From an uncultured Bacteroidales bacterium (lineage in GTDB: Bacteria; Bacteroidota; Bacteroidia; Bacteroidales; Paludibacteraceae), in the NCBI GenBank assembly GCA_902769535.1, contig CACXPH010000013.1, positions 1-43,724 on the forward strand: a DNA stretch of 43,724 nt, written 5' to 3'. Below are positions 3,861 through 41,800 of the stretch, in pieces; position 1 is the first letter of the stretch, and every line of letters begins with the position of its first letter. The position numbers and the translations under genes are program-made. Below the pieces are notes generated by a model that saw only the letters and a list, made by a program, of their open reading frames with translations, was not told the DNA's origin and did not search any database.

Positions 3861-4439
3861 TTAATCAAAAACCTCCATGAGGACGTCAAGGGACTTGGGT
3901 GACTCCCAGGTCTCGACATGCTCGGCGAAATAGGCGCAGAGCGCGCGCAGAGCCTCTTGACGGGCTTTGCGGGTATATGGCGTATTGTGTATGGTGTATA
4001 GTGTATGGTTCTCCGGAATTGCAAAACCCAGTTTGGCGGCGAAGTTCACAAGGAACTGCAGGTGGAAATTCTGCGGTTCATCCGTTTGATCCAATTCGCG
4101 GATGGAGTCGGCGAGGAAATCATACATCGGTGCATCCTCCATCGGATGACGAAGGACGTTATGCAGGATCTCGCTCATGAATAACGCGATGGTTCGTTTA
4201 TACGGATCGGTTGTAATCGTGGCGGGTACGAACGTCAGTTGCGCCGTGCGTATAGAGCGCTCGTCGGTAGTCAGTTGCACAATGGAAAGCGGCGTGTATT
4301 TGCCGGAACTATTCTTCTTGCCCAGACCGTACACCATATAGTTAATACGCCCGCCTGTGCGGGTATACGCGTGAAGCACGTGCGCTTTGTCGGAATGCGG
4401 CTGAAGCGACAACACTATCGCATCAGTCGTGACTAACAT
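3861..4439 (-). CDS. recO: DNA repair protein RecO, short form
   Basis: RecO brings RecR to SSB-coated DNA and loads RecA in the RecFOR gap-repair pathway. The N-terminal OB-fold is clear (LVTTDAIVLSLQPHSDKAHV, then YTRTGGRINYMVYG and PLSIVQL), as are the helical middle part (FHLQFLVNFAAKLGF) and the C-terminus (KSLDVLMEVFD). At 192 residues from ATG 4439 it is about 45-50 residues shorter than usual Bacteroidales RecO. The missing stretch after KLGF is replaced by residues encoded by a 7-nt tandem repeat at 3973-4007. ATG 4439 is preferred over ATG 4463 because RecO proteins normally begin just before the first OB strand. The gene overlaps the upstream phosphoesterase gene by 17 nt and is the last gene of the pgk operon. 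Confidence 0.88.
   Translation of the reverse strand: MLVTTDAIVLSLQPHSDKAHVLHAYTRTGGRINYMVYGLGKKNSSGKYTPLSIVQLTTDERSIRTAQLTFVPATITTDPYKRTIALFMSEILHNVLRHPMEDAPMYDFLADSIRELDQTDEPQNFHLQFLVNFAAKLGFAIPENHTLYTIHNTPYTRKARQEALRALCAYFAEHVETWESPKSLDVLMEVFD
3973..4007. repeat. Heptamer tandem array inside recO (about 5 x GTGTATG)
   Basis: Five consecutive 7-nt units on the plus strand: GTATATG, GCGTATT, GTGTATG, GTGTATA, GTGTATG. It lies within the recO reading frame and encodes the His/Thr/Tyr-rich stretch between the RecO middle domain and its C-terminal helices. Confidence 0.8.
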
Positions 4440-5361
4440 AGAGGGAATCGATTTGCACTCCATCGCTTAACCGATGGACTGTAAATCGCATGGGTGATGG
4501 GTGATTGGTGATTGGTGATTGGATCACACCATACACCGGCTCGACAAAGGCCGTGTCCGGCGTGTAGTGGAATTTCTGAGGTTTGGGTTTACCGGCCGTG
4601 TTAAGCACCACAAACGGCGTGCGACGCATGTAACTGTGGTCATGCCCTGCGAGCACCAGATCGGCTTGTCCTAAAGCATGACGGAAGGCACTATAGACCA
4701 GTACGTTTGCGCGACCTTTACCGACCGAAAGAACAGGATGGTGCATCATAACGACGATATATCGTCCGTCGGCGGTATTCATTGTCTCACGTAGCCACGT
4801 GAGCGTACGCGTCAGATGAACGAGTCGCACCAGCGGGTTGGTATCAATACAGATGAGACGTATTCCGTCCAAGTCCATGAAGTAACTGGCTCCGGGCACC
4901 CCTGCAGGTCCGTTAACAGGATACGTGAAGGCGTGTTGCCAAACAGGAGAAAGGGTCTTGTGAACACCTTTTGAGTACTCGTGATTACCCGGCGTCGCGA
5001 TAACCGGTAGGCCGTACAGATTACTGTTCGTCCATTCGCGCAGCAGTAACTGATAGTAATAGTTCTGTCCGCGATCCATCCAGTCTCCGATCTGCAAGAC
5101 TGCATCTGCATCCGGTACACGCGCAGCGAGCGTGTCGTAGTCCGCACGCGTGAGTTGGCTGTGGATGTCACCGAGGACGAGGAGGGTTAGACAGCTGTCG
5201 CTGTCATCGGTGCATGGTGAAGGGAACGTATAATCTATCGTCTCTCCGTTCCATTGGGGTTCAGCGGGCATACCGAACCATGCCTGCCAGCGGATGATGC
5301 AGAGCACTACACCACCCGCCAGCAAAAGGCTTGGTATCAATATCTTAACCCACTTACTCAT
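4423..5361 (-). CDS. Membrane-anchored calcineurin-like metallophosphoesterase
   Basis: Predicted hydrolase of phosphate esters, 312 residues. An N-terminal hydrophobic segment (about residues 6-23) should anchor it with the catalytic domain outside the cytoplasm. All metal-binding motifs of the calcineurin-like family are present in order: GDIH, GDWMDRG, GNHE, MHHP and GHDH. The C-terminal part includes a short run encoded by a heptamer array at 4494-4521. Its ATG overlaps the stop codon of the DUF3127 gene by one base (TAATG), and its 3' end overlaps recO, so the genes are probably co-translated. The substrate cannot be read from the sequence. Confidence 0.88.
   Translation of the reverse strand: MSKWVKILIPSLLLAGGVVLCIIRWQAWFGMPAEPQWNGETIDYTFPSPCTDDSDSCLTLLVLGDIHSQLTRADYDTLAARVPDADAVLQIGDWMDRGQNYYYQLLLREWTNSNLYGLPVIATPGNHEYSKGVHKTLSPVWQHAFTYPVNGPAGVPGASYFMDLDGIRLICIDTNPLVRLVHLTRTLTWLRETMNTADGRYIVVMMHHPVLSVGKGRANVLVYSAFRHALGQADLVLAGHDHSYMRRTPFVVLNTAGKPKPQKFHYTPDTAFVEPVYGVIQSPITNHPSPMRFTVHRLSDGVQIDSLYVSHD
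4494..4521. repeat. Heptamer tandem array inside the phosphoesterase gene (4 x GTGATTG)
   Basis: Units GTGATGG, GTGATTG, GTGATTG, GTGATTG follow without gaps. On the coding (minus) strand they encode the segment IQSPITNHPSPM near the C-terminus, outside the catalytic motifs. Confidence 0.85.
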
Positions 5362-5792
5362 TAGAAGGGCAGGTCACTTGTGCCGTCACCGGCCGAAGCG
5401 TCAAACGGATCTACATTAGCTACAGGATCCATTGCTGCCTGTGCAGGCGCAGCCGGAGCTGCAGGCGCTGCAACCGGTGCAGCCGCAGGAGCAGCACCCG
5501 GAACGGCTGCAGCTTGCGTCATGTCACCTTGCTGGATCTTCCATGCACGGATAGAGGTGTACCAACGGCCGTTGAACTCGCGGCTCTCGATATCGAAACT
5601 AACGGTTACCAACTGGTCAATATCGCAGGGGTTCATCTTGATGCGGTCTTCACCGAACACCTCGAAATGCACCTTGCGCGGATACTGATCCAAGGTCTCT
5701 AATACGTACGGTTGAACCTTCCACGGGTTGCCGTTGCGACCTACACCTTCCTGTGCAGGCAGTACCTGAATAATCTTACCTACTACTTCCAT
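5361..5792 (-). CDS. DUF3127 protein with SSB-like acidic tip
   Basis: 143 residues. The first ~95 match the DUF3127 family of Bacteroidota, a small OB-fold-like domain (KVHFEVFGEDRI, VTVSFDIESREFNGRWYTSI). A low-complexity Ala/Pro linker follows (about residues 100-125), and the chain ends in an acidic tip, DGTSDLPF. The layout of OB-like domain, disordered linker and acidic tip ending in Pro-Phe is that of bacterial single-stranded DNA-binding protein, which uses the tip to recruit partners such as RecO. Here recO sits two genes downstream. A DNA-binding or DNA-repair role is inference; the family call is firm. It starts 3 bp after the pgk stop codon. Confidence 0.85.
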   Translation of the reverse strand: MEVVGKIIQVLPAQEGVGRNGNPWKVQPYVLETLDQYPRKVHFEVFGEDRIKMNPCDIDQLVTVSFDIESREFNGRWYTSIRAWKIQQGDMTQAAAVPGAAPAAAPVAAPAAPAAPAQAAMDPVANVDPFDASAGDGTSDLPF

Positions 5793-5795
5793 GAC

Positions 5796-7046: not shown

Positions 7047-7073
7047 AGTGTTAAATATTTAGTTGTTAATTGT

Positions 7074-8425: not shown

Positions 8426-8478
8426 CAGCCGCAAAAGTAAATAACCAAATACCAATTATAAATTAACCAATTGTTATC

Positions 8479-9823: not shown

Positions 9824-9827
9824 ATGT

Positions 9828-11842: not shown

Positions 11843-12598
11843 TTACTCGAAGCTTAGATACGGAGCTATTCGTTCGAGCTCGTCGTCGGAGAGTTCTGGA
11901 AGTGTGCGGAGTTCGTCAATAGACTGCAAGCGTACTTGTTTGCGGCGAAGGGAATAGATGGCTTTCGCTTGGTTGTAACGTAAGTACGGATGGCGTTGCA
12001 AACGCTCGACAGAACAGCTGTTTACGTCCAGTTGTTGCACATCTTTCGGGTCGGCGGTAAAGTGCGAAAGGAGTGTGTCAAGATGCAACTTCGCGAAGCG
12101 CTCGTCTTTCAATTGTTCGGTACTGTAATACCCGCCTAATTGTTCTCGATACTGAACAATCTGAATAGCAGTATATCGACCTATGCCGCGAATGAAGAGC
12201 AAGTCCGTCGTGTCGCAATGATTCAAATCCAGAATGGTATCTTTCTTCTCATGCTTGGCATACCGGAAACCCACAGAATCCCGCCAGAGTGAGTCCGCCA
12301 AACGGAAAGAATCGTACTGCTGTTGCCGGATCTGTTTCCATTCGCTTCGTCGGATAGAGTCGGCCAACCGAAACGAGTCATAGCGTTGCTCACGCTCCAA
12401 GGCCCACTGCGCATAGCGGATAGAGTCCGCTCGCCGCATGGAGTCCTTGCGTTCTTCCCAGGATCGCCTTGGTTGTTTGTCGGGAGGATCAGGCAGAACC
12501 GGTTGACGCGACGGCCATATAGCCACCACGAACCACGCCACCAGCGCTATACCGAACAATATAGCCGCTGCGATCCGTTGTTCTTTGGCGAGAATCAT
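11843..12598 (-). CDS. Helix-hairpin-helix (ComEA-like) membrane protein
   Basis: 251 residues. One N-terminal membrane segment (about residues 9-29) is followed by a charged stretch with three similar 23-residue units (consensus DS-x-R-x-ADSIR then W and RQQ). The C-terminal half holds two helix-hairpin-helix units: LDLNHCDTTDLLFIRGIG and the more divergent LDVNSCSVERLQRHPYL. ComEA-type proteins bind DNA at the cell surface during uptake. With a membrane anchor and HhH units, a DNA-binding role is plausible, and a comEC gene is nearby (21421). It overlaps the xseA stop codon (ATGA). Confidence 0.85.
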   Translation of the reverse strand: MILAKEQRIAAAILFGIALVAWFVVAIWPSRQPVLPDPPDKQPRRSWEERKDSMRRADSIRYAQWALEREQRYDSFRLADSIRRSEWKQIRQQQYDSFRLADSLWRDSVGFRYAKHEKKDTILDLNHCDTTDLLFIRGIGRYTAIQIVQYREQLGGYYSTEQLKDERFAKLHLDTLLSHFTADPKDVQQLDVNSCSVERLQRHPYLRYNQAKAIYSLRRKQVRLQSIDELRTLPELSDDELERIAPYLSFE

Positions 12599-13677
12599 AG
12601 TACGTCACTTTGAATGGTTCCGTCGGAAAGATGCGTCTGCACGCGGTCACCTCGTTGTACGTCCTTGATGCTTCGAACGACCTTTCCATCTTTGGTAAGC
12701 AAGCTGTAACCCATACGATAGATACGCTCAGGATTACACGAAGCGAGTCGCTGCTCGAGCATCTCCACACGGTGCTGACGAACGAGTATCTGCCGTTCAG
12801 CGGTGCGCTGCAGCCGCATCATCAAATCAGCCACCCGTCCCATTTTGTCATCCATGCGGTGAATGAGCCATTCGGCAACGGCTGTCGGTGTCTTCAGCGC
12901 CTCATGCGCCACAAGATCGAGCACCGACACATCTCGTGTATGACCGATTCCGGTGATAATAGGCAGTTCGAACTGCGCACAGACGGCACAGAGCGTATAG
13001 CGATCAAAACAACTGAGATCAGTGGTAGCGCCGCCACCGCGGATAATGGCTACGCAGTCAAAAGGCTGACCAGAGATCTCTTCTAGGGCGGCGATGATAG
13101 ATCTCTCCGCTCCTTCGCCTTGCATGACCGCTCCGAAGAGTTGCGTCTCAAACGCATACCCGCTGTTATCCAATTGGTGCTTGAAATCTTCGTATCCCGC
13201 TGCGTTTGGCGACGAGATGACGGCTATGCGTCGAATGAGTGTAGGAAGGGGTAGGAGTTGCTGCGCATCGAGCAAGCCGTCTGCTTCCAACTGCTTAATG
13301 GTCTGCTGGCGTTGCTGCGCCAGATCTCCAATGGTATAACTCGGATCAATGCCGACAATAGACAGACTCAACCCATAGACCGGGTGATACTGCACCTCTG
13401 CCTCTACGAGCACTGCCATACCGGCTTGTAGCGTCTGACCTGTCTCGGACTCGAAATAGGCCATCAGCAGTTCTTTATTGCCTGCCCAGCAGGTAGCCCG
13501 CATCTTAGCCGCTTTACCCTCAACGAGTTCCAGATACAGATGTCCGCCTCGTTCGCTGAGACTACTGATCTCCGCCTTTACCCAATAAGAAGGCGCCAGA
13601 GAGGACTCCAGCGCTTCGCCTATCTCGGCACACAGTTCGTAAAGAGTTAGTGTCGCCACGGGTCGCAAAGGATACAA
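12595..13677 (-). CDS. xseA: Exodeoxyribonuclease VII large subunit
   Basis: Catalytic subunit of exonuclease VII, which degrades single-stranded DNA to oligonucleotides. 360 residues, clearly shorter than the 400-460 usual. The N-terminal OB-fold (LTLYELCAEIGEAL, YWVKAEISSL) and the catalytic domain (IAVISSPNAAGYEDF, AIIRGGGATTDLSCFD, TGIGHTRDVSVLD, TPTAVAEWLI) are intact. The shortening is in the long coiled-coil region before the C-terminal strands (MGYSLLTKDGKVV). No xseB follows; the next gene encodes the HhH protein. The start at ATG 13677 overlaps the barrel gene by 31 bp; GTG 13659 is an alternative. Confidence 0.93.
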   Translation of the reverse strand: MYPLRPVATLTLYELCAEIGEALESSLAPSYWVKAEISSLSERGGHLYLELVEGKAAKMRATCWAGNKELLMAYFESETGQTLQAGMAVLVEAEVQYHPVYGLSLSIVGIDPSYTIGDLAQQRQQTIKQLEADGLLDAQQLLPLPTLIRRIAVISSPNAAGYEDFKHQLDNSGYAFETQLFGAVMQGEGAERSIIAALEEISGQPFDCVAIIRGGGATTDLSCFDRYTLCAVCAQFELPIITGIGHTRDVSVLDLVAHEALKTPTAVAEWLIHRMDDKMGRVADLMMRLQRTAERQILVRQHRVEMLEQRLASCNPERIYRMGYSLLTKDGKVVRSIKDVQRGDRVQTHLSDGTIQSDVL

Positions 13678-14819
13678 CGTTGTTGTGCTTTTAAACTAAA
13701 GAGTATCGTGAAACGTACACCGACTGTGAAATTGCGAACCCAGAGTTTTTCGCCGTTCGCGACTTCCGTCGTGAGGACATGATTCATGTTAAACGAGTGG
13801 AACTCATACAGTCCAAGTTGCTGCGCTGCGATCTTCTCCGGGTCATTCTCGGCTTCGTTGATATTGAGGTCGTATAAACTATTCGTACCTTTGGGACTGA
13901 TGTTAGGCAGACTCATGTCGATGAAGGCTGATAGACGCAATCGGCAGTCCATATTATCAGCTTTGCTGCTTCGGTATTGAGGGATAGCTTGGAAGGTATT
14001 GAACTCATATCCTCCTTCGATGTGTCCGAGGACGTCAAGACCTTCTACGCCTCCCAAACGAATAGGCAGTTTGCTTCCTTTGTAGGTAAGAGGTACATCC
14101 TTGCGGAAGCCGTGATTATCTATCTCGTCAAAAACGCCGATAAAATCGTTGAAGACACCCATGGAGGTACAGGTCGCTTTAGCAATCGTCTTACCACCGA
14201 AAGCATAGTTGACTTGCGCGCCGAGCATCACGTATCCTACGCCTCCCTGACCGGAAATATAATAACCGAAATTGATGGGCAGTTGGGCATAATAGAGTTC
14301 GGATATATCACTGCGCTCACTGAAGGTATGCTTCATATTGAATAGCGCACCGTCGTATGGATCAATCATGGGATGATTCATACCTTTCTCCTTATTGGAG
14401 AAGCCATTGTAGAATGTCGACACATTCTCAGGAAGGAGTTCTGACTTAACCGGTGTTGTTACATATTGGATGCCAATGCCTGCGCCGGTCTGCAGGAAGA
14501 AGTTGCCGAAGTGGTACTCATATAGAATCTTGCCGCTAGCAGCCACTCCACCAGGCGTACTTTGAACACCTTGGATATTAGTAAGGAACGTACTCCATCC
14601 TCCGTCCACAGAGAAACCGAGGTAATGGCCCGAACCCGTATATGTCGAGGAATGCAGACCCAGCGCATTCGTGGACTTTTTGGCATCCTTAGAGGAGAAA
14701 CCTTTCACTTTCGCCAGGTCTCTCTCCTTCTTGGAGGAAGTAGCAAAGCGGTTCTGCCCCCATGCGGCAACAGAGGCGAGGCAGAGGCTTAGAATGATGA
14801 TTTGTCGCAGTTTGGACAT
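13647..14819 (-). CDS. Outer membrane beta-barrel protein paired with the giant surface protein
   Basis: 390 residues with a typical signal peptide ending near AAWGQ (about residue 22). The body alternates Gly/aromatic strands and polar turns (GHYLGFSVDGGW, FFLQTGAGIGIQY, YYAQLPINFGYYISGQG) and ends in barrel-like strands, as in outer-membrane porin-like proteins of Bacteroidota. Its start overlaps the 3' end of the 2,190-residue surface protein by 31 bp. Such pairs recall SprB/SprF or PorP-type partners, where the barrel helps to export or hold the large protein. That role is inferred from context; the sequence lacks the usual PorP/SprF N-terminal signature. The last residues (CILCDPWRH) are non-barrel-like and overlap xseA. 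Confidence 0.75.
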   Translation of the reverse strand: MSKLRQIIILSLCLASVAAWGQNRFATSSKKERDLAKVKGFSSKDAKKSTNALGLHSSTYTGSGHYLGFSVDGGWSTFLTNIQGVQSTPGGVAASGKILYEYHFGNFFLQTGAGIGIQYVTTPVKSELLPENVSTFYNGFSNKEKGMNHPMIDPYDGALFNMKHTFSERSDISELYYAQLPINFGYYISGQGGVGYVMLGAQVNYAFGGKTIAKATCTSMGVFNDFIGVFDEIDNHGFRKDVPLTYKGSKLPIRLGGVEGLDVLGHIEGGYEFNTFQAIPQYRSSKADNMDCRLRLSAFIDMSLPNISPKGTNSLYDLNINEAENDPEKIAAQQLGLYEFHSFNMNHVLTTEVANGEKLWVRNFTVGVRFTILFSLKAQQRCILCDPWRH

Positions 14820-17800
14820 GTGTCTCTTACTATTACTTTAATGGCTCTATATGATTCTTTTGACTCTTTGTTGTCCGACCATACTTGAACGATGTACAAT
14901 CCTTCTACGGACGGTATGGACACCGGCGTGGCCGCACCATGGTATTCGCCTCTGGAGACGAACTGACCTTCGGCTGTAGTGATGCGGTACTCGCCACTAC
15001 TGTTTTCATTGAGTGCAAGGATATGTATCGACCCTCCACGTGGTACGCAGGTAGGTGTTACGGCGATGTAGTCACTCGAAGGTCCATGATCCGCATCAGG
15101 GTTCGTCGGCATGTACTGTACGATAATCGGACAGGTAGGTGCGGAACTGATAACCTCGCCGTTTTCGTCCGTCTCGGTGAGCACTACATGGTAGGATGCC
15201 GATCCCTCGGACTCATATACCAGACCTTCCGGCACATAGAGGTAAGGCTTGGTGTAGCCGAACATCTTCTGTCCGTTGCGGTACCACTGGAAATTGGTCC
15301 ATTCGTAACCTCCGTTGTGCTCAGCATTCAGCAATACAATCAGGTCGTTGTGGCGCTGCTCCATGATCCATCCGGGGTAGTTAATCATTACCTCGAAGGT
15401 GTATGTCATCAGCTCTTCTCCTGCGCAGACGCCGTTCTTGAAACCGATGGTAGCGCTATATACACCCGGTTCCGGATACTCCTCTTTCGAGTCAAGCATC
15501 GGAATAGGCAGGTCGAGCACATAGACGGAATCCACTTTCCATTCCGATTCAAGACGCTCGATCTTTTGATCGATAATATCCTTGAATCCTAAGTCTTTTG
15601 CTCCATCGTCGTAGTAAACGCTGAAACTGGTAGGATATTTCCCCTTGTACTTATAGCTGATTGCATAAGTGAGCTCGGTGTCAGCGTCTCCGAAACATAC
15701 CGGCGAAGGTTCGACAGTGAATGAAGACGCCTTCACTACGGAGAGTATAACCGTTGTCTTGGTCTTACACTGATCTTCTTCCTTTTCTTTGATAAACCGC
15801 GTATATGTGCCTTCGGTCGTCAGCACGGTGTCGCCTAATTGATATGTTTCGCCCTGACAGATCGTAACGCTAAGTTCAACCGGTTCTAACGCTTCGCGTA
15901 ACTCATAGTTAAGCGTTAGCACAGAGTCGCAGTAACATCCTACGGTCTTTAAACTGTCGCGAACAGTGTAATTACCGATAGCTAAGTCGGAAGGAATTCT
16001 GTTGCCCGGCACTTTGTTGGTCGGGTTACCCTGTGCGTCCGTGAAATGTGTCAAATCCGGATTGCCGGTCTTGTACTCGTACAGGTACAGATTACTCGGG
16101 ATATGTTCCTCGCCGTTCTTTAACAACCAGTGGAATTCATCATCGTGCTGACAGATAGTCGTGTCGTAGTTGTACGGGTCGATATATGTATCCCTGTAAT
16201 ACGCGTTCATACCCGTACATGGAGCAACGCCGTACGCAGGTTGGAATTTAATAATTCCTACATAGAAGTCTTTGCACTGCACGTTCGGATCCGGATGAGG
16301 TATCTCGTTTGTGATGGTATCGGATAGACTACCATTCACATCGTAGCATATGGCAGAAGACGCATTAGCCCACTCCGGCGCCCACTTGGGATCATTGAAG
16401 CAGCGGGAATAATTCCGCTTTACCTCTCCGTTACCGAGAACCGTCAAATCCAAAATACAGATAGAGTCCACGCAAATATAGTTATAGGCAGCTGTGTGAT
16501 AACGCTTGGCACACATGGTGTCTCGTATATAAGCGTGTCGATCCCAAAGCGTATAATCGCTGACAAGGAATGGTTGATCATTGAAGTGTCCCGGCCAGAG
16601 ATATGAGTCCGTGGCGCACACCGTAATCACCTCGTCCTTATTGTCCGTAACCAGGAACGTGGGATAAACCGTTACATACTGCACCTGTACATCGAGTGTG
16701 CCGTCCTGATTCAGTATGGTGTCAATCAGCAGATAGGTACGGGTGCCGTCTTCATTACAATGATAATCCTTGTCCTTTGCACGATCATAGCCATCCGTAT
16801 AATCCACCTCACCGACGACATTTCCGTGCTCGTCATAATAGAAACGGAAATAATCACTTGTGATCTGCGGGAAAGTATTGTAGCGTGTGCCATCTGCAGG
16901 TCGTGCGATGGATGTGTCACCGCCGAACTTCCACGGAGTGCTTACACCATCTAATCGATTGCCGTTATCACCGAAAATCACAGGAGGTAAGATGGTGGCC
17001 TTTCGTACGATCATATCCAAGAAGGTCGTACTATCGCACGCTTGTAAAGCAGTACCGGAGGATACTTGCGTACGGTGCAATTCTCCCTTTGTCGCCTCTG
17101 CTGCCGCAAATTGCGATACCAAAGTCTCGTCTATGATAAGCACGGAATCTACACCTGCTATGGTTTTCAGTTCATCTATACCACTCACCTCAGGGTGAGT
17201 AGTGAAGAAATCTTTACCTACGAACAATACGACCGGCTCGGTGAAGAAACGCACTGTGTCGTGCGAGTACAAGGTGTACTCGTAGGTGGAGAGCGCTCTG
17301 TTAACATCCTCTCGGTAGATAGGGTGCACGTACATGCGCACTACCTCACCGCTATCGCACCATACTTCTTCTTCTTCGTGGGTCTCAGGGTTAGTCCAAA
17401 ATTGATGTTCGGTTTCGAATTTATTACCCTTCTCTTGCATGCCCGGTTCATTCAGAGAGAATGTGAGACCTTTGAAGACCACTGATTTTCCCGGTTCTTG
17501 GCACGCAGCGGAATCTACCGTTGTGAGATAAGACGGATAGATCGTTAAGTCAAGATAGAAATGTGCTCCAATACCTTCTACCGGCCAATAAGGTTTTTTT
17601 GTCTTACGGTGCTCCTCGCGCTGGATACTCTTCGGCAACGATTTAGGATTCTGATAGTCGGTCATATCTATATAGATAGTGGTATCACCGGCTTTCCATT
17701 CGAACGGACCATCGTTACAAGTCCATGTGTACAAATGTTCCTCCTGCTCATCCGCTATTTGAACCAACAACTGTACCGTCGAGTCACAGGGTAAAGTCCG

Positions 17801-21361: not shown

Positions 21362-21387
21362 GTTCGCGTTATCATTCATTTAGGGCA

Positions 21388-21419: not shown

Positions 21420-21420
21420 T

Positions 21421-22698
21421 TTAATCGTATTTTTTAGACAGAAAAGCACAAAATAATAATAATAGTACATAATAAAGCAATACCATGCCCCCGCTCGCGT
21501 GTGCGTGAATGGTACTTCCCGGCAGGCTCTCGATCCAGCCGACACTATGGTTCATCGCCCAAGAAAGTGCCCACGTTACTTTGCCTATGAGCACGCCTAA
21601 CCATGAACCGCCAAAGGCGATGGTCGCTAATCCGCAGGGCACTAACAATGTAGCAAGCGGCAGTACAATCAGGTTTGTCAGCAGGAAATACGAACTGACT
21701 TGTCCGAAATAATAGATAGTGATCGGCAGCGTGCCTAATTGCGCTGCGATGGAAACGAGCATAAGGGCTATCACCCAATTGACAAGGCGACCTGTGAATG
21801 TTTGTCGTAATTCACGATAGTGAAAAACCTTACCCATACCGTTAACCATCACCACGATCGCTGCCGTTGCAGCAAAACTCAGTTGGAAACTGACGCTCCA
21901 TAGATCGCTTGGTTTGACTAACAAGATCAGCACCGCGGCAGCGGCAATCGTGTTGAGAGAGAACGACTGCCGGTAGAACATTCGTCCGATCTCAAACAAA
22001 CTGACCATTAGTACCGCGCGAACGACCGAAGGCGTCATGCCTGTTAACCACGCGTATCCCCACATGACGGCAATAATTACGGCACTAATCGCACGGCGTC
22101 CCCATTTGTTCTCATGCATCGGTCGGATTCGTCCGCCTACGGTCAGCAACCATACTAACAGGCCGTAGATAATTCCCGTGTGCAAACCGCTCACAGCCAG
22201 TACGTGAGCCGCGCCCGAAGCTTGAAAATGCCGCCTTACTTCGGGATCAATGTCGTCTTTGTAACCTAAGGTGAGCGCACCTACGGTAGCCAACTCATCG
22301 CCACTCAGACCTGCGTCGGCCAAGCGTTTGTAAAGTTGGATTTGGAGTGGTTCTTTATGTTTCTTCGCCGGTAAAATAAGATATTTTGATGCAAAGGCCC
22401 GTCCGTACTGCCGCGTCCATTCAATCTGCGTTGTAGCAACGATGGTATCGCCATAAATGGGTAAGGTTTTTGTGCTGTCTCGTAGCAGATAAACGAATAC
22501 TTTTCCGCCATCCAAGCAACGCGTCTCAAATCGCTCGCATTTGGGGGTGGATTTGGGTGCGCCGGTGATGACAAAACCATGTTTTAGAGGTTCTATAGGA
22601 GGCTGAGGCTTCGGATAGAAACGGTCAAAAAGCACTATTGCCACCACCAGCGGCAGTAGCAATAGTATCATTGGGTATGCATTAAGTCTGTTAATCAC
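21421..22698 (-). CDS. comEC: ComEC/Rec2-type DNA uptake channel, short form
   Basis: Inner-membrane channel protein for transport of single-stranded DNA in natural transformation. 425 residues, much shorter than common ComEC proteins (650-800). One N-terminal membrane segment and a compact DUF4131-like soluble part lead into the Competence domain with the hallmark ASGAAHVLAVSGLHTG and a run of membrane helices. There is no C-terminal metallo-beta-lactamase domain, and fewer N-terminal helices than usual. GTG 22698 is preferred because it gives the typical N-terminus (AYPMILLLLPLV); it lies within an 11-nt tandem repeat. ATG 22671 is the alternative. Follows rpe in the same operon. Confidence 0.85.
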   Translation of the reverse strand: MINRLNAYPMILLLLPLVVAIVLFDRFYPKPQPPIEPLKHGFVITGAPKSTPKCERFETRCLDGGKVFVYLLRDSTKTLPIYGDTIVATTQIEWTRQYGRAFASKYLILPAKKHKEPLQIQLYKRLADAGLSGDELATVGALTLGYKDDIDPEVRRHFQASGAAHVLAVSGLHTGIIYGLLVWLLTVGGRIRPMHENKWGRRAISAVIIAVMWGYAWLTGMTPSVVRAVLMVSLFEIGRMFYRQSFSLNTIAAAAVLILLVKPSDLWSVSFQLSFAATAAIVVMVNGMGKVFHYRELRQTFTGRLVNWVIALMLVSIAAQLGTLPITIYYFGQVSSYFLLTNLIVLPLATLLVPCGLATIAFGGSWLGVLIGKVTWALSWAMNHSVGWIESLPGSTIHAHASGGMVLLYYVLLLLFCAFLSKKYD

Positions 22699-22735
22699 CT
22701 ACTAATCACCTACTAATCACCTACTAATCACCTAC
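22692..22735. repeat. 11-nt tandem array between rpe and comEC (4 x TAATCACCTAC)
   Basis: Four perfect copies of TAATCACCTAC, filling the whole gap between the rpe stop codon and the start of comEC. On the coding strand each copy reads GTAGGTGATTA, providing an AGGTG-like ribosome-binding sequence and the GTG start itself. Confidence 0.95.
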
Positions 22736-22742
22736 TAAAAGT

Positions 22743-23390
22743 CTAATGGGCTTTCATGATTTTAATCACCTCTTCTGGATCTTTGGCTCCGAAAACGGCA
22801 GAGCCTGCAACGAGTGCATCGGCTCCTGCTGCGAATAGTTCGGCAGCATTGTCGGTATTTACACCGCCGTCAATCTCAATGAGGGTGTTCAGGCCACGTT
22901 TCTCGATCTCTGCCTTGATAAAACGGATTTTGTCCATCGTTTCCGGAATGAATTTTTGTCCGCCGAAACCGGCAAACACAGACATGAGCAGGATCATATC
23001 GACCTTGTCCAGATAGGGCACGAGGCGCTTGACGTCAATATCGGGATTGATGGTAAGGCAGGTGCGCACACCTTTGGCTTTGATAAGGTCTAAGATCGGA
23101 ATAGGATCGTCCACGGCCTCCAGATGGAAGCCCACCGACCAAGCACCCGCGTCGCAGAAACGCTCCACGTATTTCTCCGGATGAACAATCATCAGATGGA
23201 CGTCCAGCGGTTTTGTGCAGTATTTACGCATCGGCTCCATCAACGGAAAACCGAACGAGATATTCGGCACAAACGTACCGTCCATCACGTCCACGTGCAG
23301 CCAGTCTGCCTCGCTGCGGTTAATCATCTCTAAATCGTCAGCCAAATGACCGAAATCCGCTGACAAAACGCTTGGTGCAATGATTTTCAT
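22743..23390 (-). CDS. rpe: Ribulose-phosphate 3-epimerase
   Basis: Interconverts ribulose-5-phosphate and xylulose-5-phosphate in the pentose phosphate pathway; cytoplasmic TIM barrel. 215 residues, normal length. Signatures: SVLSADFGHLADDL, the metal and catalytic region LHVDVMDGTFVPNISFG, HLMIVHPEKYV, and the second catalytic Asp in IEIDGGVNTDNA, with AGSAVFGAKDP near the end. Its ATG overlaps the stop of the RprY-like regulator gene (ATGA), and comEC follows, an arrangement seen in other Bacteroidota. Nothing unusual in the protein. Confidence 0.97.
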   Translation of the reverse strand: MKIIAPSVLSADFGHLADDLEMINRSEADWLHVDVMDGTFVPNISFGFPLMEPMRKYCTKPLDVHLMIVHPEKYVERFCDAGAWSVGFHLEAVDDPIPILDLIKAKGVRTCLTINPDIDVKRLVPYLDKVDMILLMSVFAGFGGQKFIPETMDKIRFIKAEIEKRGLNTLIEIDGGVNTDNAAELFAAGADALVAGSAVFGAKDPEEVIKIMKAH

Positions 23391-24186: not shown

Positions 24187-25209
24187 ATGAATAAAGTGCT
24201 TTTGATTTCTACGGGTGGCACCATTACTATGGTGCGTGATGAAGCAACGCAGGCCTTGGTGCCGGCGGATATGGAGACCTTCAAGGCCTATCTGCCGGAA
24301 CTCTTTGCGGGTGCTGTGCACGTGGATATTCAGGCTTTCTCTCCGCTGATCGATTCCTCGGATGTCAACCCTGAGTGCTGGGTGCGCATGGCTCGGATGG
24401 TCTATGACCATTATGACGAGTACGACGGCTTTGTCATTCTTCATGGTACGGACACGATGTCTTACTCCGCTTCGGCACTCTCGTTCATGCTTCAAAACCT
24501 CAGCAAACCGGTTGTGTTTACGGGTTCCCAACTACCTGTCGGAGTGCTTCGCTCGGATGCAAAGGAGAACCTGCTGACGGCCATCGAGATTGCGGCTGCG
24601 AAGGACGAAGAAGGCAATGCTATCGTGCCGGAGGTAACCATCTATTTTGAGGACCGCCTGTTCCGTGCCAACCGTACGACCAAGCGCAATGCGGAGCATT
24701 TCTCGGCGTTTAACAGTTATAATTACCCGGCGCTTGCTAAGGCCGGTGTTCACATTACCTACCAGCCGCATTTGGTGCACTATTCCGATCCGAATGCACC
24801 GCTTGTGCTGCATACGGATTTTGATTGTAACGTGGCGGTGCTCAAACTGTTCCCGGGTATTCAGCAGCCCGTCGTGCGCGCGCTCTTACACACACGCGGA
24901 TTAAAAGGAGTGGTGCTTGAGACCTTCGGCGCAGGAAATGCACCAACCGACAAATGGCTCTATCGAGAACTCAAAGCGGCGGTGGACCGTGGCATTATCA
25001 TCGTCAACAAGACGCAATGTAATACCGGCTCGGTTGAAATGGGTCTGTATGCGGTTTCGCTTAACCTCATGAAAGCCGGTGTGCTGTCCGGTTATGACAT
25101 TACGACCGAGGCGCTGCTGACCAAAATGATGCTCTTGCTTGGCGAGAATCCTGAGCACGCGAAAGAGTTGCTCGGAAAGAGCCTATGCGGAGAGATGACG
25201 GTCGATTGA
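24187..25209 (+). CDS. ansA: Type I (cytoplasmic) L-asparaginase
   Basis: Hydrolyses L-asparagine to aspartate and ammonia. 340 residues without signal peptide, typical of the cytoplasmic AnsA type. Both catalytic Thr motifs are present: ISTGGTITM at the N-terminus and ILHGTDTMSYSAS (about residues 84-96). Other family stretches include VVFTGSQLPVGVLRSDAKEN and VVLETFGAGNAP. ATG 24187 is preferred to the TTG two codons earlier. It is followed at 36 bp by pepD in the same direction, the gap being a heptamer array; together the two genes suggest use of amino acids and dipeptides. Confidence 0.95.
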   Translation: MNKVLLISTGGTITMVRDEATQALVPADMETFKAYLPELFAGAVHVDIQAFSPLIDSSDVNPECWVRMARMVYDHYDEYDGFVILHGTDTMSYSASALSFMLQNLSKPVVFTGSQLPVGVLRSDAKENLLTAIEIAAAKDEEGNAIVPEVTIYFEDRLFRANRTTKRNAEHFSAFNSYNYPALAKAGVHITYQPHLVHYSDPNAPLVLHTDFDCNVAVLKLFPGIQQPVVRALLHTRGLKGVVLETFGAGNAPTDKWLYRELKAAVDRGIIIVNKTQCNTGSVEMGLYAVSLNLMKAGVLSGYDITTEALLTKMMLLLGENPEHAKELLGKSLCGEMTVD

Positions 25210-25242
25210 TTTATGATTTATGATTTCAAATTTATGATTTTT
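25208..25242. repeat. Heptamer array between ansA and pepD (about 5 x GATTTAT)
   Basis: Units GATTTAT, GATTTAT, GATTTCA, AATTTAT, GATTTTT start in the ansA stop codon and end just before the pepD start. The segment 25221-25240 recurs base for base at 28319-28338. Confidence 0.88.
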
Positions 25243-25245
25243 GAT

Positions 25246-28317: not shown

Positions 28318-28352
28318 CTGATTTCAAATTTATGATTTATGATTTGTTATTT
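28318..28352. repeat. Heptamer array between dCMP deaminase and protease genes (ATGATTT type)
   Basis: Units CTGATTT, CAAATTT, ATGATTT, ATGATTT, GTTATTT. It spans the whole junction, from the deaminase stop codon to 2 bp before the protease ATG, and shares an exact 20-nt segment with the array at 25208-25242. Confidence 0.85.
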
Positions 28353-28766
28353 ATCCGGAAGGAATTCTACCTCAATGCCTGCGCGTTTGAGGAGCTCTAC
28401 ACCGTCCATCAGGCGGTACTCTTCGCCGTACACGACGCGCTTGATGCCTGACTGAATAATGAGTTTCGAGCACTCCAAACACGGCGAAGCCGTGACATAG
28501 AGTGTAGCGCCGTTGGAACTGTTGTTGGAGCGTGCCACTTTGGTCAGCGCATTCGCTTCGGCGTGCAGTACGTAGGGCTTCGAAACGTTGTTCTCGTCCT
28601 CGCAGATATTCTCAAAGCCCGAAGGCGTTCCGTTATAGCCGTCCGAGATGATCATCTGGTCTTTGACCAGCAATGCACCTACCTTACGACGCACGCAGTA
28701 ACTGTTCTCAGCCCAAGTGCGCGCCATGCGCATGTATAAATAATCGCGTTTTTTCTGTTTATCCAT
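28347..28766 (-). CDS. Deoxycytidylate (dCMP) deaminase family protein
   Basis: Zinc enzyme that deaminates dCMP to dUMP, feeding thymidylate synthesis. 139 residues, normal. Zinc and catalytic motifs: LHAEANAL (His and Glu) and SPCLECSKLI (two Cys). VGALLVKDQMIISDGYNGTP and RVVYGEEYR are family stretches. The first 8 bp overlap the end of mpl. The related ComEB proteins share this fold, and the gene is commonly labelled dCMP deaminase in Bacteroidota next to an S41 protease, as here. Confidence 0.94.
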   Translation of the reverse strand: MDKQKKRDYLYMRMARTWAENSYCVRRKVGALLVKDQMIISDGYNGTPSGFENICEDENNVSKPYVLHAEANALTKVARSNNSSNGATLYVTASPCLECSKLIIQSGIKRVVYGEEYRLMDGVELLKRAGIEVEFLPDK

Positions 28767-34028: not shown

Positions 34029-34376
34029 ATGCTTTTGAATATATTAAAATCGAAGATTCATCGGGTGCAAGTGACGGAGGCGAACTTGGAGTATATCGGT
34101 TCGATCACCATCGATGAGGCACTCATGGAAGCGGCGAATATCTATGCCGGTGAGCGCGTGCAAGTGGTGGATAACAACAACGGTGCACGGCTGGAGACGT
34201 ACGTCATTCCCGGTAAACGTGGCAGCGGATGTATCTGTATCAACGGCGCTGCCGCACACCTCGTTAACGTCGGCGACACCGTCATCATCATGGCCTATGC
34301 TATGATGACGCCGGAAGAGGCAAAGACGTTTAAACCGGCGATAGTATTTCCCGGAGTAGGAAATAAACTATCGTAA
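34029..34376 (+). CDS. panD: Aspartate 1-decarboxylase
   Basis: Makes beta-alanine from L-aspartate for pantothenate and CoA synthesis, using a pyruvoyl group formed by self-cleavage. 115 residues, normal. The cleavage site Gly24-Ser25 lies in EYIGSITID, and the catalytic region [14 protein letters not shown], the [12 protein letters not shown] motif and the end [15 protein letters not shown] are typical. First gene of a plus-strand run with tgt and an LptF/LptG permease. Its stop codon is the first unit of an octamer array. Confidence 0.97.
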
Positions 34377-34403
34377 TAACGTAATCTCGTAATGACGTTA
34401 TGA
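34372..34403. repeat. Octamer array between panD and tgt (4 x CGTAATGA-like)
   Basis: Units CGTAATAA, CGTAATCT, CGTAATGA, CGTTATGA. The first carries the panD stop codon and the last the tgt start codon, so the array is the entire junction. Confidence 0.88.
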
Positions 34404-35536
34404 CGAAATTTTTCGAATTACAATCAGGTAATAGCGGTGTCGGTCCTCGAGCGGGAGTGATACACACCGACCACGGCGATATACTCACGCCGATATTCAT
34501 GCCGGTGGGAACAGTGGGCACCGTGAAAGGTGTGCAGCGCAAGGAGTTGGAGGACGACATCAAGGCGCAGATTATCCTGGGCAACACCTACCATCTGTTC
34601 CTGCGTCCGGGCACGGAGATTCTGCATCGTGCCGGAGGTTTGCATCGCTTTGAGGGATGGAATAGGCCGATCCTTACGGACTCCGGAGGCTTTCAGGTCT
34701 TCTCGCTTACGGACATCCGCAAGATGACGGAAGAAGGTGTGCGGTTCTCTTCGCACATCGACGGACGCAAACTCCTCTTCACACCGGAGAACGTGATGGA
34801 CATCGAGCGTGAGATCGGTGCGGACATCATGATGGCGTTCGACGAGTGCTGTCCGGGAACGGCCGACAAGAAATACGCGAAAGACTCGATGGATCGCACG
34901 CACCGCTGGCTCGACCGTTGTATCGCGCGATTCGATGGTACGGACGATCTGTACGGATACAAGCAACACCTCTTCCCTATCGTACAAGGCTGTACCTATA
35001 CCGACTTGCGCCAAGAGGCATGCAAGCGTCTGCGCGACTTAGACCGGGACGGCTATGCGATCGGCGGACTCGCCGTAGGCGAACCGACCGAAGTGATGTA
35101 CGAGATGATCGAGGTGTGCAACGACATCCTGCCGACCGACAAACCGCGGTATCTGATGGGAGTCGGTACGCCGTGGAATATACTCGAGGCGATCGAACGT
35201 GGTGTCGATATGTTCGACTGCGTCATGCCGACGCGTAACGGCCGAAACGGTATGATCTTCACCTGGAACGGCGTAATGAACCTGCGCAATAAGAAATGGG
35301 AAGACGACTTCACGGAGTTAGACCCGGCAGGTACCAGTTATGTCGACCACGCGTATACCCGCGCGTACGTTCGTCATTTAATACACGCGCAAGAGATGCT
35401 CGGACTCGAGGTGCTCTCCATCCATAACTTAGCGTTCTATCTGGATCTCGTGACCCGGGCACGAGAGCACATCCTCGCCGGAGATTACAGCGCTTGGAAA
35501 GCAAGCGTGATGCCGAACATCATGCAACGATTGTAA
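34400..35536 (+). CDS. tgt: tRNA-guanine transglycosylase (queuine tRNA-ribosyltransferase)
   Basis: Exchanges guanine for a queuosine precursor at the wobble position of tRNAs with GUN anticodons. 378 residues. Catalytic motifs: TDSGGFQVFSL (general acid/base Asp), IVQGCTY, GGLAVGEP, RYLMGVGTP and the nucleophile region DMFDCVMPTRNGRNGM. The C-terminal zinc site (three Cys) of most bacterial Tgt proteins is absent; the matching stretch reads GTSYVDHAYTRAY. As far as I know Bacteroides Tgt has the same zinc-less form, so this is lineage-typical rather than a defect. Start ATG 34400 lies inside the octamer array. Confidence 0.96.
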   Translation: MTKFFELQSGNSGVGPRAGVIHTDHGDILTPIFMPVGTVGTVKGVQRKELEDDIKAQIILGNTYHLFLRPGTEILHRAGGLHRFEGWNRPILTDSGGFQVFSLTDIRKMTEEGVRFSSHIDGRKLLFTPENVMDIEREIGADIMMAFDECCPGTADKKYAKDSMDRTHRWLDRCIARFDGTDDLYGYKQHLFPIVQGCTYTDLRQEACKRLRDLDRDGYAIGGLAVGEPTEVMYEMIEVCNDILPTDKPRYLMGVGTPWNILEAIERGVDMFDCVMPTRNGRNGMIFTWNGVMNLRNKKWEDDFTELDPAGTSYVDHAYTRAYVRHLIHAQEMLGLEVLSIHNLAFYLDLVTRAREHILAGDYSAWKASVMPNIMQRL

Positions 35537-35568
35537 CCCATAACCCGTAACCCATAACCCGTAATTCG
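35534..35568. repeat. Heptamer array between tgt and the permease gene (5 x TAACCCA/TAACCCG)
   Basis: Units TAACCCA, TAACCCG, TAACCCA, TAACCCG, TAATTCG. The first unit provides the tgt stop codon, and the array ends 2 bp before the GTG start of the permease gene. The same CCCGTAA family occurs inside the gene at 38931-38958. Confidence 0.93.
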
Positions 35569-35570
35569 GC

Positions 35571-36644: not shown

Positions 36645-36665
36645 GAAATCAGACGTCAGTGTTTT

Positions 36666-38411: not shown

Positions 38412-38433
38412 GATATCATTTTATTGTTAAGGA

Positions 38434-38811
38434 TTACACACGCGCCTTGCGTTTGCGGAAGTAAACCACTCCCGCAAACGTAAGAGCCATCAATGCCAAG
38501 GGCAGTATAGCGTCGCCGATAGGAGATTGGTCAGACGGTTTATCATCTGCTCCATCGATTTTACTTCTTCTCGCTCCACCCGGTGCTTTTGCCGCCGAGC
38601 CGGTAGTGGTAGCCATCTGGCCTACCGACGAAGAACCTACTTCTGTGATAGGCGCTGTATAGCCACTGGCACCGGACATGATGGAGGTAGATTTCCATTG
38701 CTCCTGCTCTTGTGCCATGGTCGGCAGCGCCATGAGCGCCACCGCCATGAGTATCATCACAATTCTTTTCTTAGCCACAAGGGCACGATTAATTTCTACG
38801 AAATTTTTCAT
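38434..38811 (-). CDS. Small exported protein with C-terminal membrane anchor
   Basis: 125 residues from ATG 38811; the GTG at 38835 lies in a heptamer array and is less likely. There is an N-terminal signal segment (about residues 14-33, ending MAQ), then ~65 Ser/Gly/Thr-rich disordered residues. The C-terminal layout is tripartite: SPIGDAILP, a membrane helix of about 18 residues, and a basic end (RKRKARV). That layout resembles sorting signals processed by sortase- or exosortase-like enzymes, but no named signal is matched. It lies between the giant repeat protein gene and the phosphatase-like gene, 22 bp from the latter, so it is probably part of the same operon and surface system. Function unknown. 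Confidence 0.8.
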   Translation of the reverse strand: MKNFVEINRALVAKKRIVMILMAVALMALPTMAQEQEQWKSTSIMSGASGYTAPITEVGSSSVGQMATTTGSAAKAPGGARRSKIDGADDKPSDQSPIGDAILPLALMALTFAGVVYFRKRKARV

Positions 38812-38822
38812 ATCTATTTTCC

Positions 38823-38850
38823 TTTCAATTTTCACCTTTCACCTTTCATT
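38823..38850. repeat. Heptamer array at the junction of the two surface protein genes (TTTCACC type)
   Basis: Units TTTCAAT, TTTCACC, TTTCACC, TTTCATT. On the coding strand they read GGTGAAA, overlapping the TGA stop of the upstream gene and supplying purine-rich sequence ahead of ATG 38811. Confidence 0.75.
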
Positions 38851-41800
38851 TAACCTGTCGTCCTTGTGCGTCATAGATCTTACCATCCTTGATGATATAC
38901 ATCTTCTGGTCGATGATAACCTTGCGAGCTCCCGTAACCTGTAACCCGTCGCCCGTAACCTCTTCTACGTCCGTCGGAGTCTGCACGATCGGCGAGATCT
39001 CAAGCAGGAAGCGGTTGTCTATCTTACCCGCTGTCAGACTTACTTCATAATCCATCAGACCGAGGTTCGTGCGCGTGCCTGTGATACTATCTACAAGTAC
39101 TACGCCCACACCGTTCGTTCCTTCCGGCAATGAAATCACGTACTCACCAGCCGACTTGATGTCCAAACCTAACGGCACGATTGTTGTCTGGTCCGTATGA
39201 ACAGGCATACTGTTAGCAGCCACTTTCTCAGTACCGATAAAGCTGAAGATCGCGCTACGTTTCTTGTTGAACTCTTTGGACATGTCTTGACCGAAGTCAA
39301 AGCCATCCGTAACTGACTCTAGATCCTTCATACGAATGTATGTCCTGTCAATCATCTGATTGTTCTGTTGCAACTCTAAGCGCCAGTTATACTCTTCCGG
39401 CTCGGTGTTTCTCTGACGAGCTACAATGCTTGACGGTTTAGCACTTACTGCCGTCCATACAATCGCACCTCCGTTCTGTACAAGGTATGCATGCATCGGC
39501 TGGAACGAGAACTCGCTGGTTGCTTGAGGAGTAATCGTATTATCTGCCTTGTTCCACAGATAGATGAACGGGAATGCTGCATCGTCTTCTTTCCACTCAT
39601 AGTCATCTTTCCATTCGATCATGTTTCCTTCTCCATCCTCCAATGCGCTATTATACATATTGAAACTCGGAACACCGATACAACGCCAGTAACTATCTTT
39701 GATTCGACGATCTCCATCGTCACCATTCTCACGGTTAATCGTACAACGGTACGGATCGCCCTCTATCGTGTTCAATGCCGGGATTGTTACCTCCGTGCTC
39801 TTCAATGTCTCCAGAGTAACAGTCGATGGGAAGTACAACTCAATCGTGGTATTCTTGTTGGACCAGAACGTGAAATCAGTTGCCTGCATATAATCCATAT
39901 CCAATCCTAAGATATAACCTTGATTTGCCTTGAGCACGAAATTATCTTTTTCTTCCGGTTCAACATATTTCCAGTTAGACGGAGAATCGATCCAATAGCC
40001 GTTTTGAGCACGGGATAGACCATCGTACCACTCAATGTACCACTCATTCCAGTATTGACCGAATCCGAATACGTCGCTCAGTTTGACATCAAACGGGAAG
40101 GAGATGTAATAGTGTGAACGCTCATAGATCGATTTCTGATCACCAATAGCCAACGGCCGGTGATAAGTAGCGATTGCAGATGCATCTGCGCAGTGCTCAG
40201 GAGTATCATCTTCCGGATGTTCACGGTTGTTCAAAATCCAACGATTGAACTGCATTACGCCATATACCGTCTTCACTCCGGTCAAAGCCGACTCATCATT
40301 AGCAAACGTGATACATTGTGCAGATTCGTGGTGCGAACGTACCACCATCACATCTGCATTGATATCTAATACTCCGTTTATCTCTTCGGTCGATCCTGTC
40401 GGCTGCCAAGCAGTAACCAAACGATTCGTCTTAAAGTCATATACTACACGAACGGAGTATTTCGACGAAGAAGATGTACCACCTAACAACTCAACGGCTG
40501 AAGTACCCTTCACAAATCCTGCGTCCGAAGTGCCACGGAAATATTGGCGTATTCCTTTGTAAGTAGCATACAACTTCACTAATGCCGAAGGATTAGCTTG
40601 TACGGTAATCTCATAAATCCAGTTCTGATCATCCCTCAGCAGCGTTGCATTTGCTCCCGGAGGATTAGCGGAAAGGTCACTACCGTTTTCGTCAAAGATA
40701 TTGGCATTCGCAGTACCGCTTCCTTGCAGAACAAGGAATCGTGCCTCCGTAGAAGTGGACGATGCCACGTACGCACGACTAATCTTATTCGTCTTGCGGT
40801 TCCACATAAAGCGCACGTTAGCACTATTAGGATCCAGATAGGCATTACTTCCGGAGTGTCCGTCATTACCATCGTTGTTCAGCTTGCCATCAGCATCGGT
40901 GTTACTATACGGATTACCTACATCTTGCTTCAAGGTATCCGTAATACACATACTGTAGTCGTTGGCGATAGTAAATGCAATGTTCGTATTACGCGGACAC
41001 CATTTTGCTTTGTAATGACTGAACTTCTCGCCAAACGTATTCGCAGTACTCTCGGAGAACTCGGAATAGGTCATCTTATGATCTGAACCGACGCGGTAGT
41101 TGTCCCATCCTCCGGTGATGGCTTGCGAACGGATATAGTATTGTCCGGTGTACGGACGAATAGAATCCACCGTGATAGAACCGGCAGCCTGCGAGAGGTA
41201 GAAGTTATAAACACCGGACTCTTCAATATCGCTCAAGTCAATCGATCCTCCGGCAACATCTCTCCAATCCACTACACCTTCTCCATCTACAGCATATGCG
41301 TATTGGAACTTCATACTTGCGCTTGCTCCAACCTCTTTGCTTACGTAGAACGAAACGATGTCTTCTGCGCCATCTTTCTTTTCAATCGCGCGTGATGGGT
41401 GATACCAAGAAGCATCGTGCGCAGAACCCAGCGACCAAGCCACACGGTCATTGTAAACGACGCGATAGTCATTCGCAGCAACCGGGTAATGTACACCAGC
41501 CAGGAAGTTATAACCTCCGCTATTGCCATAATTCAAAGTGAAGGTATAGTCTCCGGCAACGGATGTCAGCAAACCGGTACGCTTGTTCTCGGCAAGAGCC
41601 CATCCAGTTCCATCATCGCCGCTATCGCCGTTTTTCATTACCTTCGTATCCGTACCATATTTTTTACCATCTGCACGATGAATCTCAAATCCGTACTCTT
41701 TACCGCCGGCTAACTCTACGGTCAGACTCATCGGCATGGTCTTGTCCTCATTGTACTCAAACGGAATGGACATCAATCCGTCCGATGCCCCGAAGGTTTT

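Follow-up and report, generated by a model that had tools for sequence, protein, structure and literature searches.

Tandem arrays of heptamers have been noted in scattered bacteria, and their origin is not agreed. The excerpts of PMC4679880 cited here describe the long simple sequence repeats of prokaryotes (Mrazek 2007), which have units of 5-11 nt, heptamers being the commonest, a sporadic phylogenetic distribution, and slippage as the proposed origin. The same excerpts report TAACTGA heptamer arrays in Beggiatoaceae, cyanobacteria and some Bacteroidetes, often adjoining start codons and, when two Cyanothece strains are compared, with indels that are mostly steps of 7 nt, and also two heptamer array sets in Paludibacter propionicigenes. 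The GGGAATC arrays of Xanthomonas and the GGGGA(T/C)T arrays of Nostoc are, in the excerpts of PMC4692102, enriched between genes, some of them overlapping stop codons, and at the same genes they vary in length and sequence between related species; three tandem heptanucleotides are mentioned there for Calothrix. Two other systems are relevant by their unit lengths, each taken from part of its source: parS of pSM19035, with 7-10 consecutive 7-bp repeats, of which at least 4 are needed, bound by a ribbon-helix-helix protein (PMC9499535), and DRT10, in which a reverse transcriptase (RT) makes 9-nt tandem-repeat cDNA from a non-coding RNA (ncRNA) template (PMC12632851). In this work, we analyze nine arrays of 7-, 8- and 11-nt units found in one stretch of 43,724 nt (the window), which is contig CACXPH010000013.1 (C13) of a 1.887-Mb draft genome of the Paludibacteraceae (G000, 84.85% complete), together with similar arrays in the rest of that genome and in its genus. 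Cyanobacterial STRR heptanucleotides, with several different tandem heptamers per genome, and the Rickettsia palindromic elements, discrete, longer and palindromic repeats that are tolerated in frame in protein genes, complete the set of systems to compare.

We consider it rather probable that an active process in this genus makes these short tandem arrays, with slippage, spread in trans and tolerance as its parts. Such a process would act genome-wide and yield arrays of about 4-5 copies of a 7-, 8-, 9- or 11-nt unit, about 30-45 nt in all. The arrays would be born and resized by slipped-strand replication or repair, and certain unit families would also spread in trans, reaching unrelated sites within their genome, either via DNA copying between arrays or via a unit-specific factor. 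Placement would mostly reflect tolerance, such that arrays persist in gene gaps and, where they keep the frame, in variable protein stretches, with loss at other places. In a gene gap, an array of about 30 nt would become the gap itself and often provide a stop codon.

Unit vocabularies across the genus

The arrays of G000 draw on a narrow set of words. Its 126 period-7 arrays (the census is described below) have 56 distinct units, versus 118.8 for random heptamers of the genome (minimum 112 in 200 draws), and the commonest unit has a multiplicity of 10 versus a null maximum of 4. The favourite units of genomes G014 and G157 differ from those of G000. Pattern searches cover 151 genus genomes. 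A tandem pair of AATCACCTACT occurs in 35 of them and ATACACC three times in 17, and the reversed controls in none. GTCGTTR with at most two mismatches occurs in 21 and is absent from 130, with 182 matches in G101, 150 in G157, and 13 in G128, the sister of G157 at ~94-95% identity; the reversed control has one match in G157 and none in G101. For AAAGKTK, 14 of the 41 genomes searched have matches, led by G014 (47) and G000 (24), with 11 matches of the reversed control in each. The variance-to-mean ratio of the matches over the 151 genomes is 12.3 for ATACACC, 12.4 for the 11-mer and 106 for GTCGTTR. These counts establish that unit families undergo species-specific bursts. The 11-mer unit may resemble the complement of the 3' tail of the 16S rRNA.

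The tetramer CTAG at a 9-nt phase is found in 89 of the 151 genus genomes (88 of 150 without G000), and its control in 4. In a phylum sample of 345 Bacteroidota that includes G000, the pattern is present in 3 genomes (2 of the 344 others), and the control matches more genomes than the pattern does. The G157 stretches have 15 neighbouring CTAG pairs 9 nt apart, though only 33 CTAGs. CTAG arrays keep variable spacers in several genomes, with an adjacent spacer identity of 0.31 in G000 and 0.69 in G157. One run of CTAG-phased 9-mers in G071 (C1:40029-40275, ~250 nt) is far longer than the usual arrays and is possibly a coding repeat.

At 14 GTCGTTRGTC sites in G157, the flanks 25-60 nt away are as dissimilar as random pairs, and we see no conserved flanks in the listed G000 arrays. 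Two GTCGTTR arrays in locus L195 (G157), at ~3030 and 4205 and thus 1.2 kb apart, have a common 3' flank (GTTAGTCTAACAGYGAARCGG), probably from a local duplication, unlike the other listed sites. Within the units, 4.74 of 7 phases are invariant versus 3.47 under randomly placed mismatches. The longest invariant run is 3.67 versus 3.48 for period 7 and 4.32 versus 3.87 for period 8, with no excess for period 11; recopying of unit variants could mimic such runs.

The same site in related species

At mpl-dcd, dcd-ctp, ansA-pepD, tgt-lptG and RR-rpe, the relatives have unrelated units or other periods, or they lack an array and have almost no gap. The near relative L073 illustrates the range: its tgt-lptG gap has TAAATCA where the window has TAACCCR, its ansA-pepD array is common to both with a 7-nt copy difference, and it has no dcd-ctp array. 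We aligned array loci in five comparisons of close species (~91-96.5% identity), which share some genomes and so are not independent. Among 95 aligned loci, 48 have an array in both species and 47 have one over the threshold in one species only. The 48 shared loci divide into 26 without an indel, 7 with unit-multiple indels, 1 mixed and 14 other. Substitutions amount to 12.1% in array regions versus 5.6%, an excess that is partly misalignment.

In six comparisons that share genomes, 16 of the 29 clean single indels of at least 5 nt involve an array, and 12 of the 16 are multiples of the unit (eight by one unit, four by several) versus 1.8 expected at random length, where the 16 represent about 12 loci and so are non-independent, and where the unit is read from the longer allele, such that a plain tandem duplication also scores as one unit (one 24-nt case may be such). 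Arrays can also be shrunk to one or two units at an orthologous site (e.g. 35 = 5x7, 32 = 4x8). In the L231/L233 pair, the units of an array change in concert from CGTGATCT to CGTGATTA, in the L229/L198 pair one site has different periods, and the same arrays are conserved across separate assemblies of species ~96% identical. The unit-step indels and the one case of concerted change demonstrate slippage and homogenization.

These alignments also bring up repeats of other kinds. A non-tandem sequence of ~33 nt (CTCTGCCGCAAGGGCGCGATTAACTCCG...) is found in or beside arrays at two different loci, L198 (G157) and L229 (G128), as a second, longer dispersed repeat. Loci L170, L171, L177 and L179 have 15-nt arrays of type ATTTACCATTTGGTC and 15/16-nt units such as GACCGCTTCGCTGTAA.

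Abundance and placement in the genome

By an exact criterion, period 7 is the commonest in 443,724 bases of G000, with 38 arrays. It is followed by periods 11 (14 arrays), 14 (9), 8 (6) and 10 (4), and no other period between 2 and 30 has more than 2; the second-order Markov controls contain none. A relaxed criterion applied to 843,545 bases (the window and 40 stretches, some picked for 11-mer matches) finds 214 arrays: 126 of period 7, 33 of period 11, 25 of period 8, 9 of period 9, 5 of period 10 and 16 others. The median number of copies, pooled over three genomes, is 4.57 for period 7, 4.12 for period 8 and 3.91 for period 11. Sampled stretches have 2.5 arrays per 10 kb in G000, 3.6 in G120, 4.6 in G157 and 5.3 in G014, where the G014 stretches (near AAAG-family matches) and some of those of G000 were picked near known pattern matches, so the density of G014 in particular may be overestimated. 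The dipeptidase gene of the window has named relatives mostly in Bacteroidales or Paludibacteraceae assemblies, with rumen or gut as a frequent source. In the loci around these genes, many members of the rumen group, though not all, have dense arrays, and the neighbours from Bacteroides and Paludibacter have sparse ones.

According to a home-made gene caller (690 genes in the 843,545 bases), 92 of the 214 arrays are mainly in genes; gaps hold 88 where the genes are co-directional, 10 where they converge and 13 where they diverge, and 11 are at stretch edges. Leaving out the edges, the numbers expected from length are 189.0, 9.3, 1.8 and 2.9 respectively, about a nine-fold excess in co-directional gaps. 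Arrays are found in 30 of the 80 co-directional gaps of 20-40 nt, 2 of the 114 gaps of 0-20 nt and none of the 137 overlapping gene pairs, a contrast that is partly by construction because an array can hardly be assigned to a gap shorter than itself, and one mostly within genes is counted as coding. The period-7 arrays divide into 63 coding, 51 co-directional, 5 convergent, 3 divergent and 4 at an edge; 58 are wholly within one called gene, and 55 of these are more than 60 nt from both gene ends. The initial annotation, made from the window, proposed that a process acting on operon junctions creates or maintains the arrays, perhaps by slippage, with a tuning of spacing and translational coupling. 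The enrichment at co-directional junctions that it called for is there, and so are arrays in the rest of the genome beyond those of the controls. A restriction to junctions is not supported, given the 55 of 126 period-7 arrays deep in genes, the enrichment of convergent and divergent gaps, and the different units or missing arrays at orthologous junctions.

We find no evidence for a tuning of translational coupling. In the 85 junction arrays, stop codons are commoner on the sense strand (52 to 21, 12 ties, p 0.0001), and array-free gaps have a bias in the same direction, if weaker (p 0.01). The excess is clear only where the array overlaps or adjoins the stop of the upstream gene (33 to 12, p 0.002; 19 to 9 further off, p 0.09), as expected if an array there must supply the stop. 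Stop codons as the reason for the units are rejected, with 45 of the 56 distinct period-7 units containing one on either strand versus 42.2 after shuffling their letters. The depletion of arrays in genes, together with the open frames of those that are there, suggests that placement is due to selection. The pattern can be explained without a conserved function at junctions, although the arrays may have one there.

The arrays of the window

Tandem Repeats Finder retrieves all nine arrays of the initial annotation, displaced by about 10 bases or less (Table 1). A lag-autocorrelation scan finds eight of them at its normal threshold; array 38931 needs a lower one. Six of the nine are at junctions of co-oriented genes (22692, 25207, 28328, 34372, 35533 and 38821), and the other three (3972-4009, 4490-4522 and 38931-38960) are outside gaps, all in an open frame. 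The claim that most arrays fill such junctions is then right for the window; of the 126 period-7 arrays of the sampled genome, 63 are mainly in called genes. Similarly, the claim that arrays supply stop and start codons holds for the upstream stop in five of the six junction arrays (TGA at 25207, TAA at 28347-28349, TAA at 34374, TAA at 35534 and TGA at 38846-38848) and does not hold for the rpe stop (22743-22745), just outside its array, or for the lptG GTG (35571), which comes after the array. The ATG of tgt (34400) falls in the last, degenerate part of its array, the start of comEC may be the GTG at 22696-22698, in the array, or the ATG at 22669-22671, and pepD probably starts at 25246, directly after the array. 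The 25207 array is classed as in-gene by our caller, which takes a start codon inside the array, so a few of the coding calls are really junctions. Units do recur elsewhere, as claimed: two tandem copies of the exact 11-nt unit are found on four other contigs of G000.

Table 1. Positions, strands and surroundings of the nine tandem arrays in the window.
Array	Positions	Strand	Surroundings
7-nt, ATACACC family	3972..4009	-	inside recO-like gene 3861-4463, open frame (NHTLYTIHNTPYT)
7-nt, AATCACC	4490..4522	-	in frame, near 3' end of phosphoesterase gene 4423-5361, just upstream of recO-like gene
11-nt, TAGTAGGTGAT on sense strand	22692..22738	-	occupies most of rpe-comEC gap
7-nt, TGATTTA/AAATCAT family	25207..25245	+	ansA-pepD; provides ansA stop
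7-nt, AAATCAT family	28328..28354	-	dcd-ctp; holds dcd stop
8-nt, CGTAATNN	34372..34409	+	panD-tgt; holds panD stop and, at its degenerate end, tgt ATG
7/14-nt, TAACCCR	35533..35564	+	tgt-lptG; holds tgt stop
7-nt, TGAAAGG	38821..38848	-	between genes 38846-43450 and 38434-38811; holds stop of 38846-43450
7-nt, TAACCCG family	38931..38960	-	in frame near 3' end of 1534-aa open reading frame 38846-43450

The window has no Rfam matches at gathering scores and no tRNA matches. It includes a 2196-aa open reading frame on the minus strand (14789-21379). For xseA (12595-13677), as in many genomes of the genus, the family match comes in two pieces with a shortened middle. Loss of exonuclease VII as a cause of the arrays is rejected, as xseA is found in 24 of 25 genus genomes and in 39 of the 41 searched.

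Arrays inside genes

In-gene arrays lie in an open frame; in the first 443,724 bases listed, for example, several different genes have the ATACACC unit read as YTIHHTP. Four genes (mpl, ctp, pepD and the one at 31381) have their arrays at variable segments, with different units across syntenic relatives. At one place in mpl, L031 carries a 7-mer array and L036 an 8-mer array, where the window has none. The array stretch of MurG (L022, 16611-17681) aligns to the solved chain 3s2u_A without a net insertion, so the array seems to replace a stretch of the protein, not to add one. One of the seven in-gene examples could not be aligned, as the set contains no homologue of it. Short repeats rewrite protein sequence in frame in genes that are conserved, murG, mpl and ctp among them.

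Possible origins of the arrays

Several other origins have to be weighed against the active process proposed above. Slippage could be purely local: each array would grow out of the local sequence, and units would recur as some heptamers slip more easily than others. This is the explanation given for long simple sequence repeats, with a polymerase footprint of ~7 nt. The unit-multiple indels, the shrinkage to one or two units at orthologous sites, and the over-representation of heptamers in many bacteria (PMC4679880 and PMC4692102, in their excerpts) all agree with local slippage, yet as a complete account it seems unlikely to us. The vocabulary is far narrower than random local draws permit, and it is species-specific, as with GTCGTTR (150 in G157, 13 in G128) and ATACACC (17 of 151 genomes); if slippage were biased in a general way, sister species would be expected to show the same effect. 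We judge it quite improbable that the arrays would be functional platforms for tandem-binding proteins (for instance of the ribbon-helix-helix type) or RNA-binding proteins, or would tune translation. There is a heptad precedent in parS, which needs at least 4 repeats (PMC9499535, in part), and the median here is 4-5 copies. Invariant phases exceed the null with a contiguity slightly above chance for periods 7 and 8, not 11, and the 9-nt phase of CTAG persists with variable spacers in several genomes. A platform is hard to reconcile with the 56 or more period-7 units of less than half a genome, with the many arrays deep within genes, and with arrays lost and replaced between sister species, and recopied unit variants would also confine mismatches to few phases.

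A dedicated writer enzyme, such as a template-directed RT (telomerase-like or DRT10), a diversity-generating retroelement, or a Y1 transposase associated with repetitive extragenic palindromes, could write the arrays. A template would account for species-specific vocabularies, and DRT10 produces 9-nt tandem-repeat cDNA from an ncRNA template (PMC12632851, in part). We searched profiles in 25 draft genomes, 19 array-rich ones or their relatives and 6 with low pattern counts. In this small and biased sample, RVT_1 (PF00078) is found in 6 of the 19 versus none of the 6, and Y1_Tnp (PF01797) in 10 of the 19 versus 1 of the 6. The six genomes with RVT_1 are G014, G133, G118, G071, G079 and G151, five of them array-rich picks; of the 11 with Y1_Tnp, 9 are over the cut-off and 10 are array-rich picks or relatives. 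A writer of this sort is nevertheless very improbable: RVT_1 is not found in the drafts of G157, G129, G109, G050, G059 and G140 (94-100% complete) or of G000, G098 and G101 (80-89% complete), all nine rich in one pattern or another, nor is Y1_Tnp found in the drafts of G157, G000, G014 and G098. The genomes compared within the genus appear to be metagenome assemblies, which would leave room for an assembly artefact or chance; the Markov controls without exact arrays and the conservation of arrays between separate assemblies of species ~96% identical reduce that probability to almost nothing.

The proposed combination of slippage, spread in trans and tolerance has several points against it. 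Per base, arrays are denser in co-directional gaps than in the others (p 0.005), which leaves a modest preference for junctions. The reversed GTCGTTR control, perhaps because reversed words are array words elsewhere, matches 52 of the 151 genomes (198 matches, no genome with more than 25), so that little can be read from low counts, and the bursts of 150 and 182 are the only ones that are distinct. Arrays share the order of their variant units no more often than by chance (19 pairs versus 18.4 expected), a weak test that speaks against recent copying in blocks. Of the 16 clean array indels, four do not correspond to a multiple of the unit, and complex changes separate sister species at many array loci. 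The coding class depends on our gene caller, vocabulary counts are matches, of which one array can have several, turnover is judged from comparisons between species assemblies, and spread in trans is inferred.

Spread in trans is a tentative part of the proposed process. Unit families might disperse in trans into unrelated sites, protein genes included and without conserved flanks, and so produce the species-specific bursts of words; we consider this less likely than not, and the same applies to dispersal running without a detectable RT in several array-rich genomes. If true, such families would be a dispersed element smaller than known mobile elements, spread via DNA copying between arrays or via a unit-specific enzyme, and the list of bacterial mutation mechanisms would miss one process. 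With its many array-bearing species, its sister pairs at 91-98% aligned identity and its species-specific vocabularies, the genus allows the birth, spread and loss of arrays to be followed directly.

Comparison with known systems

The initial annotation knew of no described system of this kind; the excerpts of PMC4679880 and PMC4692102 contain related ones, and among the matches listed from open-licence papers there is no account of such arrays in this genus or family. One likeness is to the long simple sequence repeats, which in those excerpts also have units of 5-11 nt, most commonly heptamers, a sporadic phylogenetic distribution and a proposed origin in slippage. Like them, the arrays here are longer-than-chance tandem repeats of such units and change by whole units (12 of 16 indels versus 1.8 expected). 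They differ in coming from one genus, at 2.5-5.3 arrays per 10 kb of the sampled stretches, each species with its own vocabulary, in their rapid turnover, and in the many heptamer arrays in frame within genes. The TAACTGA arrays are, in what the excerpts give, also short intergenic heptamer arrays with indels in 7-nt steps, but of one favoured unit, mainly forward and just upstream of start codons. In G000, by contrast, there are dozens of units per genome and also 8-, 9- and 11-mers, no single family dominates (56 units in 126 arrays, the commonest 10 times), and 63 of the 126 are in called genes. The arrays of Xanthomonas and Nostoc, as excerpted, are similar as heptamers enriched between genes, some overlapping stops and varying among related species, but they belong to one G-rich, quadruplex-forming unit family, whereas here the units are mixed and mainly A+T-rich, with no single family. 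DRT10 is alike in its 9-nt tandem repeats and differs in that, from the part of the source cited, it needs an RT and an ncRNA; RVT_1 is not found in G000, G157, G101, G059 or G129.

Two likenesses are of a more general sort. With the cyanobacterial STRR heptanucleotides, the arrays share the presence of several tandem heptamers per genome, a likeness of description and not sequence by sequence. With the Rickettsia palindromic elements, they share occurrence in frame within protein genes, and they differ from these discrete, longer elements in that we find no conserved ends, with no conserved flanks in the listed arrays or at the 14 G157 sites. Heptamer arrays as such are already known; what differs here is the number of unit families, their species-specific bursts, their turnover, and their frequent presence in frame within genes.

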